DNA of 64,000 bases. Source: Adineta ricciae (lineage: Eukaryota; Rotifera; Eurotatoria; Adinetida; Adinetidae). This document shows, one piece after another, positions 5,965 to 41,021 of this stretch (the stretch's first letter is position 1; each line of letters opens with the position of its first letter). The notes under the pieces are model-generated. The model was given only the letters and a program-made list of their open reading frames with translations. It made no database searches and was not told where the DNA came from. The stretch is from assembly GCA_905250025.1 (NCBI GenBank), contig CAJNOJ010000024.1, forward strand, positions 186,001 through 250,000. The letters are read 5' to 3'. A program made the translations under genes and the position numbers.

Positions 5965-7068
5965 AGGGGAGAGTAGCAATCGGTCCAACAAAGTGCGAGA
6001 TATAGTGATGAAAAGGAGAAGAAAAGAAAATGGTTGAGTATTTTGATGGTGTATACGTGAAAGTAATTAAACATGAAAACGGCAAAAAGTAAGTGTAAAA
6101 TGATGGACAAAGGTCGTATATAGAGACGTGCGTGTATATCAAATGAGACAAACAAGAGTTTATCTGATGTCGAGATGTATAGATGAAGCCTCTCAACGCT
6201 TTTATTTGTCGATAATCAGTGCGAAAAAAAATGCTCTCTACCAAACAGAGAGAAGATGCATTGATCCAGAAAGAATTCGATTTCAAGGTTTAAGGTATCG
6301 ATTGATTAGTTTTCCTTCGATGATATTTAAGCTGATCGAAGTAAATTATTTATTTGTTTTACAATGTGCGGTATTTATCAATTAGAAATGATTTCTTGAC
6401 AAGTTCTTATCTATCGAAATCAGTTGGAGATCAGATTTGTAGTTAATGATTTGACAAATCTATTAGGAGATGTTCAAACGCAGAAATCTAGGTGTGAAAT
6501 TCAAGGAGATATTACGTCTGCTTAATCGCTCTCCGCACGTGAAATCATAATATATTCAATAAATTTTCCGTCTGACATACATTTTCACCGTAATGACGAT
6601 CGTTGGGATGACTGTTTATCGTAGGACAAATAATCAAAATAGTTGATTAGATAATAACAGGGTACAAACGATTCACGTATTGTATTTAGTGTCAAATCGA
6701 GTCTATTGAATCGAAATGTTCATAAAAATTGTCTCCGAAAACCTCGACGTATTCGAAGTTCAATAAGTAGAGAATGAACACCAACGAATTATATGTATCA
6801 AATACTTGATTAATCTGACGCAACGATATGCGAAATGTAGACACTGGTTAGATACGGTATATTTGTATAATTTCGTAGACATACACCGTGCGATACCTTC
6901 CTTTAATCGTAATATGCGCATCCTATCGAAGTTTCATTCTCTGTGACTTAGCCAAAAATAGCCGTACGATTCTATAAATAAAATTTGTTTTATTTGACAA
7001 AAATTGTTCTATTATATCAAAAGACAATGGATGGAATGAGAAGAACTGATCGAATTCAAAGAACATGT
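4353..7068. other. 2.7-kb stretch without a recognised gene
   Basis: Open frames here on either strand are low in complexity, lack family motifs and read as Lys/Arg/Tyr- or Ser/Phe-rich strings. The region has poly-A/T runs, short GA tracts and a TA/GA microsatellite near 5924-5963. It lies upstream of the Ser-rich gene and may hold its promoter, 5' UTR exons or long introns. I see no RNA gene or transposon protein in it. Confidence 0.5.
5924..5963. repeat. Compound microsatellite (TA)n(GA)n
   Basis: About ten TA units pass directly into about ten GA units without interruption. Confidence 0.95.
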
Positions 7069-7896
7069 TTATTTGGTTTTCTCTTCGTGTTTGTGCTGTC
7101 GTTCTTTTGCTTTCAGTTCAAACGTGACATTCACTGTAACATGAACAGTAATTGTTTTTGCGTCAAGTAGATTTTGAAATGATGCCGCTTGTCCTGGTGC
7201 TGACAATGAGCCTTCTCGTTCTTGATAACTTTCTTCAACAATATGCACAGCTTTAGCTACGTGAAGACCAACTGTTCGAGCAATATCTTCGGCCGTGTGT
7301 TTGGCATTGCGAACAGCTTGAACACTTGCTTGACGTCTACGAACGAGAGCGAAAAATGAATCTTTCGTTTGACTATACACGAAACTTTACTTTAAATTCT
7401 CTAAACGAAGTGTCGAATGAAAAAAGACGGGATCGAGCACTCGAACAACAGGCGCATCCAGTTTTTCGACTAATTGATTATGACATTGTTGATACCGTTG
7501 AATATCAAGAAATATTGCTGTTACTTCAGCAGTAACTTCGTACATTGTGTCGCGACGTACTATTGATTGAACTACGGTTTTGTCCTGCTCTTTGACGCCA
7601 TAGTTTCGAAACGTTTGTTCGACGTATCGCAATCGACGTATAACGCTTGTTTTAGCTTCGTTCACACTAGATTTCGTACTTGTTATCATAACGATTAATT
7701 TGATTCGATCAGGCGGAAGAGAGAATTCTCCCATACCTGAAACTGTTACTTGTCGACGAGAGTCCGAATCCGAGAAGATTAATGCACCACGCATTTGTTC
7801 ATCTGTATAAACACGATTTTTTGGCACGAGACCGAGTGATTTCATCTGTCGATTTGACGTGATATAAGCGAGATTTTCTTCTCGACGCATACTCAT
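7069..7896 (-). CDS. IRAK1BP1/SIMPL-like protein (DUF541)
   Basis: Vertebrate IRAK1BP1 (SIMPL) binds the IL-1 receptor kinase and modulates NF-kB signalling; the fold is the SIMPL/DUF541 domain shared with bacteria. Seen here: VSGMGEFSLPPDRIKLIVMI, VRRDTMYEVTAEVTAIFLDI, LVEKLDAPVVRVLDPVFFHS and VRNAKHTAEDIARTVG, in family order. An intron at 7337-7390 (54 nt, GT-AG) removes an in-frame TAA and joins ENLK to RQASVQAVRNA, matching the family's ENL-RRQ-V---A-NA pattern. Start taken at the MSMRR methionine (7896); an upstream ATG in the same frame at 8037 would add a Cys-rich stretch not typical of the family. The bacterial-like signal peptide is absent. Confidence 0.85.
7337..7390 (-). other. 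54-nt intron of the IRAK1BP1-like gene
   Basis: Reads GTAAAG...CGTAG on the minus strand and contains an in-frame TAA. Splicing restores the conserved ENLKRQ junction. Confidence 0.75.
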
Positions 7897-8219
7897 GTAT
7901 GATAATATCGAAAAATCGACTTTCAAGAGATGTACAGAATCAGTTGCTAACGTCAAGAATTCTTTCCGATAGAGGCAATAGCGACAGCAACCGACGATAT
8001 GTATGTGCGCGTGTTGATAGGAGCAGAAATTTGACAAACGGTGTAAAAGAAAGAAAGAAAGAACAAAATGAAGGAACAGAACGACTTCTATGTCTTTTTT
8101 TCCTTTTCTTTCGTTGGTTAAAAGAAGAGATGTTACTGAATCAATATCACGAATAGCACATGTATATAAATATGTCTAGAATAACCTTCTAGGGAAAGAC
8201 AACGTTTTTTTATATTGTA

Positions 8220-30967: not shown

Positions 30968-31271
30968 CGTTGGACAGGAAAAAGTAACAAAGAGAGATTT
31001 AGCGATGATCCAATATTAATAATAAACTGAACAACGAATGATCATTGTGAACTAATAACCAATTAAATAATATACCCAATACAGTATATAGTATTCTTTC
31101 GATAAACAGAAAAAGAAAACATTCCTATGCATTAGCGCACTAATGCAGAGAAATTTGACCAATACAAAGTCAGCATCAGTCACATTGTTAATTGTGACGG
31201 GTAAACTACGGATCGGATAGGAAAAAAAACAACATCAAATCAATATATGATTGCTGATTGATCGAACGAAA
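30968..31271. promoter_or_regulatory. Divergent upstream region hnRNP H/PBX
   Basis: About 300 nt between divergent start codons of two regulatory genes. Holds a short repeated GCATTAGCGCACTAATGC inverted motif near 31129-31146; otherwise AT-rich. Confidence 0.45.
31129..31146. repeat. 18-nt perfect palindrome in hnRNP H/PBX spacer
   Basis: GCATTAGCGCACTAATGC-like sequence: the arms GCATTAG and CTAATGC are exact reverse complements around a CGCA centre. It could be a dimeric factor site; function unknown. Confidence 0.6.
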
Positions 31272-32568
31272 ATGGATGGTCAAGATTCATCTTATAATCC
31301 AAATCTTCCACCATCACATTATAGTCCAATGATACCACCGTTGACGACAGATGTCAAATATAATCTCTACGATACGAATACAAGTGAAAATAAGCCGTTT
31401 AATGATGTTAATGGAATGCTGCAACAAATCATGTCTATTGTTGATCAAAGTCTTGATGAAGCTCAATCAAGGTTTGTTTTGAAGTTTCCAATTGGAGAAA
31501 AAGTCAAGAATCTTTTATTTAGAAAACATGCCTTCAATCAAAGTCGACTCAAACCCGCTTTTTTTCAAGTATTATGTGAAATAAAAGAAAAAACAGGTAT
31601 GACATATTAAACGTCAAATGTCTGATCGCAAGGATCTCCTTTTCTTTCTAGCAATTAATATTCGTAACTTTCCTGAAGACGAACCACCCGATGCGCAATT
31701 GATGCGTTTAGATAATATGCTATTAGCCGAAGGTATCGCCGGGCCTGAACGATTAGGCGGTTCATCGACTTCATCATCTGCTGCGAGTGCGAATGCAGCT
31801 GCTAGTATTAATGACGAATCAGCACTTGAACATGGAGATTATCGTGCAAAACTATCACAAATTCGACAACTATATCATAGTGAACTTGAAAAATACGTAT
31901 GTATCGTATTCGATGAAGTAAATGTTAGTTTACCAGTGTTTGTCTCCTTTTCGTCAATAGGAACAAGCATGTAATGATTTTACTAGTCATGTTATCAATT
32001 TATTACACGAACAGAGTCGTGCACGTCCTATATCACCTCGAGAAATTGACCGAATGGTAGCTATCATTCGAAAAAAGTTTTCATCTATTCAATTACAACT
32101 GAAACAAAGCACATGCGAAGCTGTCATGATTCTCCGTTCACGTTTTCTTGACGCCAGGTAATACATCTTACTCTACTACGATATTCTATTAAATACTTGA
32201 ACCCATCTAGACGAAAACGTCGTAACTTCAGTAAAACAGCTACTGAAGTTTTGAATGAATACTTCTATTCGCATTTATCAAATCCATATCCAAGCGAAGA
32301 AGCCAAAGAAGAATTAGCACGTAAATGCGGCATCAGCGTGTCACAGGTACAGCAATCTAATTGAATCCGAAGGCATCTTTTCGATATTGTTGATTCCTAA
32401 TTCTAGGTCAGCAATTGGTTTGGTAATAAACGTATTCGTTATAAGAAAAACATTGGTAAAGCACAAGAAGAAGCCAATCTATACGCATCAAAACTAGCTA
32501 ATCAAGCAGCACAGGGCGTCGGTAGTATGCGACGGGACAGTGACAGTTCACACCATGGTGAAAGATAA
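31272..32568 (+). CDS. PBX/Extradenticle TALE homeodomain protein
   Basis: PBX proteins are nuclear cofactors of Hox and MEIS factors. [63 protein letters not shown]; an Ala/Ser run follows. [61 protein letters not shown]. The TALE homeodomain has the three-residue loop extension ([20 protein letters not shown]) and recognition helix [20 protein letters not shown]. Start ATG at 31272. The Ser/His-rich tail is short, as in Exd. About five short introns. Essentially unambiguous. Confidence 0.96.
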
Positions 32569-32997: not shown

Positions 32998-34002
32998 TCA
33001 TAGTTCACCTTTCAGTCGATCGAAGTTCTTTTTATACAATCGAAAATGTGCATGCGTTGTTGGTAATGACTGTTGGGCAATATCGAAAGCGAGTCTATAG
33101 CACGCTCGTGCTCGTGAATAATCACCCATTTTTTCGTAGAGTGCACCGATGTTATTGTGAGAAATAGCTAAATTCGGGTGATTTGCCCGGAGCGTTTGTT
33201 GGATTTCCAAAACTCGTTTGTAATAACTGAGAGCTTTTGTATAATTACCCATATGACGATATGATATGCCAATATTATTGTATAACATACTCAAATCAGG
33301 ATGATCTCTCGGTAAAGATTGTTGTTTGATTTCAAGCGATTTTTCATAGTACGAAATTGCTTTGATATAATCGCCTATTTTTAGGTAGACAGCAGCGATA
33401 TTGTTATATGACATTGAGAGATCGAGATGATCGGAAGGAAGCGACTGTAGTTGTATTTCAAGTGCTTTCTCATAGTAGAACAACGCTTTGAAATGATGAC
33501 CGATATTACGATAGACAATGCCGATATTGTTATAGGAACTGCATAGTTCGAGACGATTCAAGGGGAGAATTTGTAGTTTGATAAAGAGAGATTTTTCAAA
33601 ATACTGTAATGCGTCTTCGAATCTACCTAGTTTTCCATAGATCATTCCGAGATTATTGTACGACGCAGCCAGGTTGAGAAAATCAGGATGAGGATTTTCT
33701 CGATCAATTTCTAATGCTTTTTGGTAAAATTGAATGGCTTCTTCGAATTTATCTTCTCGATCTCGAGTTGATGCAAGCTGATGGTAAAGATCTGCGATGT
33801 CCCTTGGATCGTTCGCACGAGTAAGTAAAACTTGATAGACTGCTCCTTGATCGTACTTATTTTTCCCACATACCAAATGATTCAAAACTGGCGTTTGTTT
33901 CGCACCTTCTTCGATGTGCTCGGCAGTGACAAGTGGATCGTTGCGGGCATTGTTGGCGTCAAGTGTGACGTTCACTTGGAAGAGTTGTGGATCGTCGTAC
34001 AT
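32998..34002 (-). CDS. Kinesin-light-chain-type TPR protein, likely 5'-truncated
   Basis: One uninterrupted exon of 334 codons. From about residue 75 it has six 42-residue TPRs of the KLC/NPHP3 type, each with a pattern like SYNNIGIVYRNIGHHFKALF then YYEKALEIQLQSLP. The first 40 residues (MYDDPQLFQVNVTLD) resemble the segment that follows the catalytic domain in bdelloid ADP-ribosyltransferase-TPR proteins. That similarity continues upstream of the ATG for ten more codons (NFLHVRDIES) until a TAG at 34033-34035. No catalytic domain can be found upstream, where an mscL gene lies. The likely reading is a decayed ART-TPR gene or one reusing an internal ATG. A stand-alone TPR adaptor remains possible. 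Confidence 0.7.
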   Translation of the reverse strand: MYDDPQLFQVNVTLDANNARNDPLVTAEHIEEGAKQTPVLNHLVCGKNKYDQGAVYQVLLTRANDPRDIADLYHQLASTRDREDKFEEAIQFYQKALEIDRENPHPDFLNLAASYNNLGMIYGKLGRFEDALQYFEKSLFIKLQILPLNRLELCSSYNNIGIVYRNIGHHFKALFYYEKALEIQLQSLPSDHLDLSMSYNNIAAVYLKIGDYIKAISYYEKSLEIKQQSLPRDHPDLSMLYNNIGISYRHMGNYTKALSYYKRVLEIQQTLRANHPNLAISHNNIGALYEKMGDYSRARACYRLAFDIAQQSLPTTHAHFRLYKKNFDRLKGEL

Positions 34003-34035
34003 GGATTCTATATCTCGAACGTGAAGAAAATTCTA
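34003..34035 (-). pseudogene. In-frame upstream remnant of the TPR gene
   Basis: Ten sense codons (NFLHVRDIES) precede the ATG in frame and look like the ART-TPR junction; a TAG closes the frame. Supports loss of a longer N-terminus. Confidence 0.4.
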
Positions 34036-34258: not shown

Positions 34259-34770
34259 CTAGCGAGTAGTAGTGATAGCTTGTTTGGCTAATAAATCTCG
34301 AATTTCGCATAGAACCTTCACTTGATCATCCATTTCAAGTTGCACCAATTCTTCACCTTCTTTGCCGGCTTTCTTTCGTGTAGCAAGTTTATGCACTTTA
34401 TTAATAGCTTTAATGACAAAGAATAATGCGAGTGCCACAATGAGTAACGAGATTATTGTTTGAATGAATTTTCCATAGCGAATGACTACCGGCGGTTGAT
34501 TTTTGTAGACGAAATTCTTCATCTTGATGGTTAAATTGACAAAGTCAACACCACCTAAGACTAAACCTAATGGAGGGGTGATAACATCATCGACAAGTGA
34601 TTGAACGACATTGACGAACGCAGTTCCAATGATGATGCCAATCGCTAAATCGATAACACTTCCACGAAGCGCAAATCTATCAATATGATTTCAAGAAGTG
34701 AGATGAACTTATGTGCAATGGTTACATACGCTTTAAATTCCTTGCAAAAATTTTGACAGCACCCACCCAT
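34259..34770 (-). CDS. mscL: MscL large-conductance mechanosensitive channel, copy 1
   Basis: MscL is a bacterial homopentameric emergency-release channel opened by membrane tension. Two exons, 34730-34770 and 34259-34676, flank a 53-nt GT-AG intron and give 152 residues. Exon 1 is MGGCCQNFCKEFKA. TM1/pore: FALRGSVIDLAIGIIIGTAF, then VVQSLVDDVITPPLGLVLGG. Loop: VDFVNLTIKMKNFVYKNQPP. TM2: RYGKFIQTIISLLIVALALF. The C-terminal helix VKVLCEIRDLLAKQ aligns with the bacterial LLTEIRDLL helix. Length is near the bacterial 130-150. The cysteine-rich N-terminus is not bacterial. The intron shows it is a host gene, not contamination. Membrane location (plasma, mitochondrial or other) is not evident. 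Confidence 0.95.
34677..34729 (-). other. 53-nt intron in mscL copy 1
   Basis: GTATGTAACC...TTGATAG, phase 2, interrupts the Ala codon before FALRG. Same position and phase as in copy 2. Confidence 0.85.
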
Positions 34771-36308
34771 ATGGAAGGAATCTAAAGATAGTGTGTTCAA
34801 GTTTCAGATTTCGTTGAACAACTATGCAATAATTGATAAGGAAAGAAAAATGTACGAAAGAACATTTCAAAGGTCAATGTCAGTCATTCACCAGTATGAT
34901 CAAACTCAACTGAATTATATAATGAAACTCTCTGTACGCTGTTCTTGCTGGTATAATTAAAAAAGCATCATGGGTGCTGGATTAATCACGTCTTACACAA
35001 AGTCTATCTTTTTGTATCGAAGTTTAACAGATGACGAGGATGAAAGCGACTTGTATCATTGTGACCAATATTCTGTGCATATTATTTTTCTTTCTCGTTC
35101 TTTCTATTTGCATTTTTGTTCGCCATACACGCACGTAATGCATTTTAGTTACGCATTCTTTTTTCGAGTAGCCATATAAATTTAAACCGATGGAATACAA
35201 TTCTGATGTAATATCAGCGTGCAAACAGACATTGAGTGGTGTATTCAAAAATCATAATAGAACAAATCAAACTGTATGCATGTTGATCGTTATTCATTCG
35301 AGTGCCTAGGGCGTTGTCGTGCACAGAAATCTTTAGCGTTCTGCCAGTTATCAGAATTTCAACAATATCTGCGAATCATTATGCTTTTCGAGATTTTTTT
35401 ATCCGCTAAGTACTTCTGTGTATCACTGCTCACTTTATATTTCAAGTACATCCTGTTATTTACTCTTTGGAACGAAATACAAACTATACCATCTGATGGA
35501 TGAATATCCAGGTCTCAAAAAGTGAAATGGCTCGTATTTTCACTCACACGAATACGTTATTAGTACGGTCGATTGAAACTTCAATAATGATTGCATATGA
35601 GCCGTACCGTACCATTCATTGTGTTTGGTTGGTTCTTTCGTCACCGAAGTTTGTTTATCTCATACATAGATTGAATTTGTAAAAAGGTTTGACTAAGTAC
35701 AGCTCGTACGGCTACGAATTAAAAACAACGTTCATTAACATAAAACTACAACCTTACCATACCTTGATTTTCAAGTGCTATTATTATTGAGAGTCCCATT
35801 GAAGGAAACCTTAAATGTGACAGCCATGCAAGGTAATGTGCTGTCGCTGACAAAAAAGAGAATTTCAATCGTCGTACAATGAATCACTATCTACTCATGT
35901 TTTTATATTCTTTGTTTCTGTCCAGCTCCTATCACACATTCATCGAGAGGCCATCAATCTTTTTCAGATATCATAAGTCTATTTCTATATTGCTGTTTCG
36001 TTGGACATTACGGGGAAAGTTAGTCTTTATAGACGTTTGGAAGAGCACATATCTCCTCGGCAACACCGAATAAATACAAAATGATCTCATCGACGTCTCA
36101 GTGTTAACAACTAGGCATTGAGCGAGGGGTTAACGCTTTATTAGTGACACAAAAGGATATGAGATCTTGATTTCTAATTCTAAATGACGATTTATAGACA
36201 ATATAACTAGAAGAACAATGATGAGTCGATGTTTCCACAAGAATATACAAGTAGAAATGGAATACGTTTATATAGAACTACAATATAAAAAGTAAACATT
36301 ACGCATGT
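34771..36308. other. Spacer between the two mscL copies
   Basis: 1.5 kb without a recognised gene. Frames are short and hydrophobic without family marks. It includes the promoter of copy 1 and 3' sequence of copy 2. No transposon protein, target-site duplication or long terminal repeat was seen by eye. Confidence 0.5.
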
Positions 36309-36835
36309 CTATTGTAATTCATTAGTTGAGTAAGTTGTTGTAGTTTGTCGAGCTAAAAGATCTCGAATTTCACATAACACTTTCACTTCGTCACTGATTT
36401 GGTCGAGAGGTTTGTTTTCCGCCTTTTCTTTTTTGCGAATTGCTAATCGATGTAGTTGATTGATACCCTTGATAAGAAAAAATAGGACGAATGCCATAAT
36501 CAACAGCGAGATTATTGTTTGAATGAACTTTCCATAGCGAATGACTACCGGTGGTTGATTTTTGTAGACAAAATTCTTCATCTGAATTGTCAAATTGACA
36601 AAATCAACACCACCGAGGACGAGACCCAATGGAGGTGTAATAATATCATGAACAAGCGATTGAACAACATTAGTAAATGCAGTTCCAATGATAATACCGA
36701 TCGCTAAGTCTAACACATTTCCACGAAGTGCAAATCTAAATGAACTCGAAAGTGTGAAATTCAGAAATCATTCTCAATTACGTACGCTTTGAATTCTTTG
36801 CAAAAATTGAAACAACCTTGACGAACGTCACCCAT
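36309..36835 (-). CDS. mscL: MscL large-conductance mechanosensitive channel, copy 2
   Basis: Two exons, 36786-36835 and 36309-36735, flank a 50-nt intron and give 158 residues. Exon 1 is MGDVRQGCFNFCKEFKA, differing from copy 1 in the first residues. The channel core FALRGNVLDLAIGIIIGTAF, NVVQSLVHDIITPPLGLVLG and VDFVNLTIQMKNFVYKNQPP is nearly identical to copy 1. TM2 differs modestly (IISLLIMAFVLFFLIKGINQ), and the C-terminal linker and last residues (TTTTYSTNELQ) diverge more. The intron lies at the same codon and phase as in copy 1, so the intron predates the duplication. Both copies have the same orientation. Confidence 0.95.
36736..36785 (-). other. 50-nt intron in mscL copy 2
   Basis: GTACGTAATT...TTCATTTAG, phase 2, in the Ala codon before FALRG. 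Confidence 0.85.
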
Positions 36836-37878: not shown

Positions 37879-39897
37879 TTATCGTCGAAGGTGTTGATGA
37901 AGAGTGAGCATTTGGGATGACACTAATGGTTTCTATGAAATCGATTAAATATAGATATTTGTCAAGTGAATGAAAGTGAACGTACCTGGGCGTAGAAAGA
38001 CGGTGCTTCTTGGGTTTTAAGCCGTTTTGCAACAGGTTCGTGATTTTCTTGCATCGCCTAAATATTTAATGGTACAGTTTTGATCTTAGATGGTTATTTG
38101 TGCTTACAAGAAGATGCACATGTGCATGCTGTTCTTGAACTACGATCATTTTACGAGCAGATGCGTGACAATTTTCTTGTGTGATTTGAATTGATGGTTC
38201 TTCGACAGGAGGTGGGTGGGGAGGTTGAATAGCTGGTTGCTGTTGTTGTTGTTGCTGCTGCTGCTGTTGCTGTTGTTGTTCCTCATCTTCTATAATGAAC
38301 TCTCGTTTTCCGTATGGAATTTCCATTCCATAGAACGCACTAAAATGGTGTAACTAAGATAGAAAACAGATTCATGTATGAATATTCATCCTACTCTTGA
38401 TGTGGTAATGGTTGTTGTTTGAAGAAAGGATCACAGAGTGCTTGTTCTGCTGTTATACGTTTGTTAGGATCAAATGTTAAAAGACGTTTCATGAGTTCTA
38501 ACGAGAAACTTGGATGTCCATTAGGAAAGACTTTCTTCATCCATTGTTCGATACTACAATGACCATAACTAAAAAGTACCAAACGAATGCAACAATCAGA
38601 CATGGGAGAATTTCTTTGAACAAAGATATTTACTGAATTGCTCGAAAGCCTTCTTTGCTCAATCTAGGATATTCAGGCATTTGTTTCAAACCAGGCCAAT
38701 CGCTATCTGAAATGTCAATAAATGATTATAGATAAACTCTTTTTCCTTAAAGTTTCATCGAATACCTGTTGGATAACCAACCACTTGAAAGATTTTTTCC
38801 AGTGCATCACGATTGAATGGCGATGAAGCTTTAATATCGTCCTGTTTACAATGAAATAGAGGTTCGAGTGTCAGTAGTTCATATAAAATGCATCCAATGG
38901 CCCAAAGATCTATTCGTAAAACATGACTTAGTTGTTGCATTCAGCTAAATTCCATTGAAAATCCTAACCTATTGCTTTCGTATGATGATGACTACCGAGA
39001 AGAAGCTCCGGTGATCGATACCACAGTGTCACAACGACTGGATCAATTTTACTCAGAGGCACAAGTGGTGAAGTGAATAATCGCGCAAATCCCATATCAC
39101 CAATCTTGACTCGTCCACGTTCCGCACCATCACCCATCAATAAAATATTAGCTGGTTTCTACGAGGAAAAGAAAGCAAGGAAGATTTGGAGAAAACATAG
39201 ATTAATTCTTTTCTAAATACGTACTAAATCTCGATGTAAGACCCAATTGGAATGTAAATAATGTATACCCGCAAGAATTTGATAAAGAATAGATTTAATC
39301 ATACCCGGTGCGCAATTAACTGTCTTTTTTGATGCTTTGGCTGCTCGATGATATTTAATTATATGCTAAATCAAAATTCAAAAGTCATTTCCTGTCTCAA
39401 ACAACATGTGTTAGAAATGAATCATACCCAAAGATCATGTTCAGCAAAATCGAACAGTAATGAAACACGACGATCGACATGGGATAAAAAAACACGTTGC
39501 AAACTGATAAGATTAATGTGATTAAGTTCTCGAAGTAACTAAAAACAAACAGAAACTCATCCGAAGAGGAAAGATTCACTCGAACGTTACAGCAATTTCT
39601 CGTATGGCACTATTCGACATTGATTGTCCAGTTGCTAGAAGAAAAGTCTACATGAAAACGTTTGATGAGAGTAAATATTACCATCGATCTGTTTCAATGC
39701 ATAATCCGATGTGTCAGTTCTATTCAATGAAAAGAGATGATATATCGAAAAAGAATGTCACAGTCGTACCCGTCCTTTCGTTTTGCTTTAAAGACTTTCC
39801 CATAAGTTCCACGACCAATCATTCGACCCTGAAAGTCGAATAACTCTTCAACTGAACGTCGAACTTGATCTTGTTGTGCTCGAAATTCAAAATCCAT
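37879..39897 (-). CDS. CDK8: Cyclin-dependent kinase 8/19 (Mediator kinase)
   Basis: CDK8/19 with cyclin C phosphorylates transcription factors and Pol II as part of the Mediator kinase module. N-terminus [20 protein letters not shown] then [20 protein letters not shown] (Gly loop); DYALKQIDG (VAIK Lys); [10 protein letters not shown] (the SMSACRE-like helix). [20 protein letters not shown] and the characteristic DMG in place of DFG ([11 protein letters not shown]) follow, then [25 protein letters not shown]-lobe: [20 protein letters not shown] and [20 protein letters not shown]. Tail: [16 protein letters not shown], a poly-Gln run of about 14, and [17 protein letters not shown], ending HQHLRR. 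About eleven exons. Confidence 0.94.
38239..38281. repeat. CAG/CAA repeat encoding poly-Gln in CDK8
   Basis: Mixed CTG/TTG units on the plus strand encode about 14 glutamines on the minus strand. Gln-rich C-termini are typical of CDK8. Confidence 0.9.
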
Positions 39898-41021
39898 CTT
39901 CGTTCTAGCATTGATTCCTCATTGATATTGAATTTCTATGTCTAAAAAGCAACAGATTAGTCTTTCGTACTCGAATTCCGGCGATTGATGCAAGTTTCTA
40001 TATTCTACACCAAAATGAAATCAATTGACGACTAACAGACACATAACAATTGAAAATCAGTCATCCAATAAAAACGACTCGTCAGTTAATTTTCATTGGA
40101 GAATGTTTCTAACAATAAAAATGAGACGTAACATGATTAAAATAATCTGTGAAAACAAAATTTGACAAATACTCGACACTTCTCGTCAGGATTTCAAACA
40201 CAACGTACATCCTAATATGCGCAAAACATTACTTGTTTGAGGAAAAGAAGGAGAAATGTGATACGTTGCTTTCGAGTAACTCTTACATTTGAATAAAAGA
40301 ATGTTTCAATTAGAAGAAAAGTATAACAGATTTTGTCTTTGAAATTTGGATGAATAATTAGTATAGGATCATAATTATATGAAAAGTTATAGATTTGCTG
40401 CGCAGCTAACTATTAATTGTAGGTAATGACGTAGTCGAAGATTAAAGTGATGACGAATTTTTCATATTTATCGATACTTTGTAAATCCGATTAGCTTCTC
40501 TTCAACTGCTACACATATCGACAAAGAATTTGCATTTCGGTATGACCGTAGTGAAAACAATGTATTTATTTTTACGGAGAGATTTGATGACAATTCGTAT
40601 TTTGTACTTTTACAATACTATCGTTTAATCATTCTATTTGTTTACCCGAGCAAATTGCTGATGAGATTATCAGGAACAAGATTATTTCATAGGCAATAAT
40701 AGCTGATGTGCTTCATTAATCGAGTACATTCGATACATCCGCAATAGCTTTGACTTTCTTATAGTATTTAATGACCGTAATGTTTCTATTCTTAGGGTAA
40801 CAATAGTTACGTATTGCATCACATTTCACTGCTGTTGTAAAATGTAAATTTGATGACGTTTAGTACGTACTACCTAAGAGTTCCTTGTCGATCTGATCAA
40901 TACGCAGTCTCATATGAGATTACCTTTTGAGAAGGAAAAAGAACTTTAATCTATGTTTCACTTGAAGCAACATACATTTAAACACACAGAAAAACAAACA
41001 AAAGACAATTGGTTTCGAATA
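39898..41021. other. Intergenic CDK8/SAMD1-like
   Basis: 1.1 kb, AT-rich; no exon, repeat or RNA gene recognised. Contains the CDK8 promoter and 3' UTR of the next gene. Confidence 0.5.

Follow-up and report, generated by a model that had tools for sequence, protein, structure and literature searches.

Members of the MscL family form homopentamers that are gated by membrane tension and open a pore of about 3 nS, in bacteria near lytic tension. The locus analysed here, two putative mscL genes within a window of 64,000 nucleotides (C24:186001-250000), raises the question whether a channel of this bacterial type has become resident in an animal genome, whether it is kept there as a working pore and which use it might have.

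The MscL genes of the window and their relatives in the genome

In line with the original prediction of two neighbouring, complete MscL genes on the same strand, splicing of the window DNA gives a minus-strand pair in which both genes are complete and bear one short GT-AG intron each. The Pfam check proposed with that prediction places both genes above the MscL cut-off (PF01741, 27.4 bits), matching the full length of the profile with 131.6 bits (2.6e-38) for gene A and 141.6 bits (2e-41) for gene B. As these scores far exceed the cut-off, a chance match is excluded. The predicted lengths of 152 and 158 residues are correct for the spliced proteins but not for the unspliced frames. Gene B runs from 36835 to 36310 and precedes gene A (34770 to 34260) in the direction of transcription at a spacing of 1.5 kb, and the pair is arranged with its closest neighbours as follows:

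31603..31971, plus strand: PBX-like homeobox gene with PBC domain, one exon, 2.3 kb away from gene A
32998..34032, minus strand: TPR-repeat gene adjoining gene A (Pfam)
34260-34770, minus strand: MscL gene A, coding sequence, 152 aa when spliced
34730..34770, minus strand: gene A exon 1, MGGCCQNFCKEFKA, encoding the cysteine cap and the beginning of S1 (splicing, alignment)
34677..34729, minus strand: gene A intron, 53 nt, GTATGT...AG, phase 2 (splicing), at the site used in 8/9 family members
34260..34676, minus strand: gene A exon 2, remaining S1, TM1 pore helix, loop, TM2, C-terminal helix and stop (splicing, Pfam)
36310-36835, minus strand: MscL gene B, coding sequence, 158 aa when spliced
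36786..36835, minus strand: gene B exon 1, MGDVRQGCFNFCKEFKA (splicing)
36736..36785, minus strand: gene B intron, 50 nt, GTACGT...AG, phase 2 (splicing)
36310..36735, minus strand: gene B exon 2 (splicing, Pfam)
38391..39918, minus strand: CDK8-like protein kinase, exons on the opposite flank (motifs; close matches only on C24 and C35)

A profile search of the whole assembly (130.5 Mb, 1,033 contigs) yielded nine MscL matches, 9/9 above the Pfam cut-off: A and B on C24, their allelic-like counterparts on C35, two tandem genes on C23 and one copy each on C76, C491 and C265. The seven matches beyond the window pair had escaped the original prediction, as had the common intron site and the cysteine-bearing N-terminus, and its term "system" is an overstatement for what the nine matches make a gene family. 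The C35 pair sits in a 10-kb stretch sharing 92.9% identity with the window. At the protein level, C35_A is 97% identical to gene A, the B genes 77-78%, the copies on C23, C76 and C491 55-66% and C265 31%. The intron is found at the same site and in the same phase in all copies except the intronless C265; in A and B it interrupts the codon preceding the FALRG motif, just upstream of the pore helix. The first methionine of exon 2 lies beyond TM1 in A, B, C35_A, C35_B, C23_2, C76 and C491, hence splicing is needed for a full channel in most copies, and coincides with the start of TM1 in C23_1.

The C265 copy (L014:4635-5084; Pfam 81.1 bits) shares 29-34% identity with the other eight and has a branch length of 3.46 in the tree described below. 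It keeps 15/28 of the columns conserved in bacteria, shows A20S, G22A and A27D, has polar changes in the pore helix and ends without EIRDLL. Given this loss of several conserved features, it may be no ordinary channel; it could also be a highly diverged modifier subunit or a relic. In the C491 gene (L013:4568-5287), the 63-nt intron is in frame and free of stops, so intron retention is possible there and would add 21 residues to the protein; a long run of N, possibly an assembly gap, adjoins this gene (L013, about 6040-7690). The gene next to the C76 copy (L012:5540-6607) resembles by eye a 2OG-Fe(II) oxygenase, a class reportedly often acquired horizontally in A. vaga (PMC10809525). An exon-by-exon search of the genome for MscS-type channels (PF00924) gave 0 matches, while the control was matched in 14/14 genomes.

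Residence in a rotifer genome, selection and origin

The assignment of the DNA to an animal is upheld and can be narrowed to a rotifer by spliced-leader genes and by a match to the glutamate receptor AvGluR1. With the Rotifera spliced-leader sequence (Table 1 of PMC3795323), 45 matches were obtained when up to two mismatches were allowed, compared to 0 for the reversed control; in 41 there is a single mismatch, the first G being replaced by T; the first 21 bases have 0 exact matches in the genome. One copy examined ends with ...CCAAGAG and is followed by GTAAAT, a splice donor. Matches were noted on C6, C8, C43, C77 and C99, and the stretch L147:1300-1700 was examined. The spliced-leader genes often form divergent, head-to-head pairs 149-152 bases apart that are repeated along C6 and C8, with spacings of 369 on C79 and 465 on C146; this layout suggests a common promoter or a spreading unit. 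The glutamate-receptor family is large (67 PF10613 matches, some being exons of one gene). For a 333-aa receptor piece in one open frame, the one such piece searched, AvGluR1 from the bdelloid Adineta vaga is the sole entry of the PDB reaching 1e-30 (E 3.8e-61), whereas a second piece of the intron type matched ordinary AMPA receptors. AvGluR1-like receptors with long open frames, often of 740-1000 aa, are found beside intron-bearing AMPA-like ones (L153-L155).

The bacterial type of the protein might be explained by a bacterium in the assembly contributing the MscL genes. Such contamination is ruled out, its probability being negligible, by the spliceosomal introns of eight copies, by the PBX-like, LHFPL-like, SET and CDK8-like genes on the flanks and by the haplotype-like second copy on C35, which extends over the whole 10 kb. 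Moreover, GC and GC3 of A and B lie within the range of five neighbouring coding stretches, as also expected after long residence. Among the flanking genes, the homeobox gene matches Pfam PBC with 3.7e-8 on 31251-31974 when stops are read as X and has homologs on C35 and C76; besides LHFPL-like and SET genes, a DnaJ gene belongs to the animal-gene flanks of the pair. The kinase, presumably CDK8-like as judged from its motifs, contains a run of 14 glutamine codons near its C-terminus (window 38237-38278). Elsewhere in the window (7387-8175), a SIMPL (DUF541) domain gene was detected (Pfam 3.2e-10), which may be ordinary; this domain is known from bacteria as well as from an animal protein.

Selection on the window genes was assessed from dN/dS (Nei-Gojobori) with one C24/C35 pair per gene. 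For gene A, 4 nonsynonymous and 13 synonymous differences (nd and sd) give a dN/dS of 0.083 (Fisher p 2.5e-6 with rounded site counts); for gene B, 3 and 18 differences give 0.043 (Fisher p 5.1e-10, likewise with rounded site counts). The test covers only A and B of the window, older pairs being near or past synonymous saturation and not interpreted. These values, together with the introns and the nine copies, bear out the earlier claim that a bacterial-type protein is retained and not decaying. Absence of the genes elsewhere, or a lack of spliced transcripts together with relaxed dN/dS, had been named in advance as grounds for abandoning it; dN/dS is unrelaxed and a haplotype-like second copy exists, both as seen within one assembly. 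Hence, because of introns, animal flanks, copy number and low dN/dS, a bacterial-type mscL gene is almost certainly resident, duplicated and under purifying selection.

The age of this residence is illuminated by C76, which has a PBX-like gene (91%), an LHFPL-like gene (69%) and one receptor exon in common with the window and thus looks like a homoeologous segment of it. The MscL gene of C76 is 117 kb away from the PBX-like gene, and a clean empty MscL site was not found on this contig: the 8 kb beside the PBX-like gene show no TPR, MscL or kinase match. As C76 carries both window homologs and a distant MscL gene, MscL was probably on the chromosome before the ancient duplication and moved later; an independent insertion on C76 is a possible alternative to old residence.

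The phylogeny proposed with the original prediction was run with bacterial MscL from three sources: a scan of genome_contigs, which gave 164 stretches and 105 relatives, 80 of these being kept, and in which family-derived patterns favour look-alikes; 296 genomes from the phylum of G003 (matches in 218); and 299 genomes from the phylum of G002 (matches in 133), the 25 best loci being kept from each of the latter two. The resulting 130 loci correspond to 126 distinct bacterial proteins, of which one of 79 aa was omitted, so that the tree comprises 125 bacterial and nine rotifer sequences over 137 columns, with many forks lacking resolution. The eight intron-bearing rotifer genes form one clade (98/84), rising to 100/100 when C265 and five long-branch bacterial rows are dropped. 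A tree constrained to unite all nine in one clade is not rejected (p-AU 0.648) and exceeds the free one by 16.2 lnL; a separate acquisition of C265 is not needed, as the constrained tree fits no worse, with the placement of this long branch being unsure.

While the rotifer clade of eight is thus supported, its sister group is unstable, being a long Patescibacteria row (96/93) in the full tree and a weak, mixed group of two Bacillaceae and two Chlorobi-like rows (41/84) after removal of long-branch rows. Because of this shift, naming a donor was given up. A viral carrier was rejected as well, the scan of viral contigs returning 29 candidate stretches and 0 relatives. Fungi encode MscL relatives, which resemble the rotifer genes in being eukaryote-encoded. 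An immediate donor of this kind, a eukaryote rather than a bacterium, appears rather unlikely; it would suit the best bacterial identity, which reaches only about 55% along the full length and 56% in some shorter stretches, as well as the changing sister group, and nothing speaks directly against it in a tree that covered bacterial relatives only. In other respects, the MscL genes are similar to known horizontally acquired genes of bdelloids, which are likewise of non-metazoan type, located on host chromosomes, intron-bearing and retained: the window pair is on a host chromosome among host genes and has introns and host base composition, C265 being without intron. They differ from these in belonging to a channel family and, in the case of the window pair, in lying beside a PBX-like gene.

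Channel features and the N-terminal cysteine cap

Near full-length matches to bacterial MscL were found in the PDB (9tiu, 28oa, 3hzq and 2oar), the best two being presumably E. coli MscL; residues 8-146 of the 152 of gene A align to a PDB MscL chain at 1.5e-30 (phmmer). With the numbering of E. coli MscL carried over through the PDB alignment, G14, D18, L19, G26 and F29 are kept in all nine rotifer proteins and G22 in eight, and two hydrophobic stretches appear as hydropathy peaks in 9/9. Genes A and B share with the bacterial proteins TM1 with its hydrophobic lock, TM2 and the C-terminal EIRDLL helix, and retain 25 and 26, respectively, of the 28 columns conserved in bacteria. Unlike bacterial MscL, the rotifer family of nine genes has the spliceosomal intron, a longer, cysteine-bearing N-terminus and the replacements V23 to Ile (9/9) and A27 to Thr (8/9), along with a changed K31 (8/9). 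In bacterial MscL, the S1 helix at the membrane face couples tension to TM1, G14 serves as hinge and L19 and V23 as hydrophobic lock (PMC4917966). Since the pore residues are kept and position 23 is Ile, the lock should stay closed at rest and give way under tension.

The S1 motif of bacterial MscL, F-[KR]-x-F-[AIL]-x-[KR]-G (PMC4917966), is present in 116/126 bacterial relatives and in 6/9 rotifer copies, including A and B. It is broken in C23_2 and C491 besides C265, which, together with the strong divergence and intronless state of C265, could indicate that the transfers are real yet no longer channels, either decaying or in a non-pore role. For A and B, however, such a loss of function is at odds with purifying selection and with the conserved columns and pore residues, making it improbable. 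A tension-gated pore is the probable nature of rotifer MscL as judged from its sequence, and that it is resident, selected and tension-gated altogether is reasonably likely.

In the nine rotifer proteins, the conserved Phe of S1 is preceded by 14-19 residues, compared to 6-10 in 119/126 bacterial relatives. By called starts, a cysteine occurs before S1 in 9/9 rotifer versus 1/126 bacterial proteins, the latter being an over-long frame. As the choice of starts favours short bacterial N-termini, a recount was made over 19 open codons upstream with any start and with untranslated bases included. Even so, only 21/126 bacterial sequences show any cysteine, 2/126 two or more and 0/126 the pair CC, whereas two or more cysteines are found in 8/9 and CC in 5/9 rotifer N-termini. 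With C24/C35 alleles merged, the ratio for two or more cysteines is 6/7 versus 2/126 (p 2.8e-8, a value too small owing to relatedness). Membrane-near cysteines are often, albeit not always, acylated. A cluster just before S1 would make a natural S-acylation site in the eukaryotic cytosol, and its position allows such a modification to be put forward as a tentative reading; a redox or metal role of the cysteine cap is also possible. N-myristoylation of the MG start was rejected, as Q at position 6 in A and D at position 3 in B do not agree with the PROSITE pattern. The genes represent a known family, MscL, in a new host lineage and with a new N-terminal variant.

Possible use of the pores and its meaning

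In the history proposed here, a rotifer ancestor would have gained a bacterial-type mscL gene, which received a spliceosomal intron shortly before the pore helix, acquired a short cysteine-bearing N-terminus and was then duplicated into the nine-member family, with at least A and B of the window kept by purifying selection. The proteins are predicted to assemble, as bacterial MscL does, into a wide tension-gated pore, in which S1 at the cytosolic membrane face would couple tension to TM1 via the G14 hinge, with Leu19 and Ile23 (Val in E. coli) as the lock. A near-lytic threshold may rarely be reached by an animal cell without retuning, which counts against this reading. The cysteines, possibly S-acylated or otherwise bonded, could pin S1 to lipid and thereby shift the threshold. 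Solute release from the swelling cell, for example, on rehydration or in dilute water, would be the likeliest use.

This osmotic-release role is a best guess from the role of the family and may be regarded as plausible, if somewhat short of an even chance. The same standing is given to working channels with another use, such as routine water balance in excretory cells or dilute water, a place in an internal membrane or the sensing of touch. The presence of several diverged copies suggests multiple uses, and nothing in the sequence data links the MscL copies to desiccation. Nothing specific speaks against these other uses; as a class, however, horizontally acquired genes are over-represented among those responding to rehydration in A. 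vaga, accounting for 14.3% of them compared to 8.3% of all genes (PMC10809525). The passages on this response do not name MscL, and "channel" has 0 occurrences in the main text of that paper. The fullest version of the osmotic reading, lipid-anchored and retuned tension pores from nine copies that mix or differ in threshold and vent solutes on rewetting, is rather speculative and would be an unlikely guess in all its parts.

Within the open-licence PMC papers searched, the genes are indeed undescribed, as suggested before, a statement reaching no wider than those papers. None of them joins "bdelloid" with "mechanosensitive", nor Adineta with mechanosensitive and desiccation; for rotifer and MscL, the main texts of PMC2667189 and PMC2726227 are without "mscl"; and for eukaryotic MscL or MscL transfer, no paper on animal MscL is recognizable by title among the matches listed. 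PMC5796728 deals with microbial osmoregulation, not with animals. A table of horizontally acquired genes in some supplement may well list these MscL genes already.

MscL is the largest gated pore known (PMC3652633). An open pore of this size would normally endanger an animal cell, and an animal keeping an MscL family must have both a use for it and a means of control. The family thus makes testable how the cells of anhydrobiotic animals withstand osmotic shock when rewetted and how the retuning of a bacterial force-from-lipid channel proceeds in a eukaryotic membrane, with the N-terminal cysteine cap as a concrete handle and the diverged copies as a natural series for gating studies.
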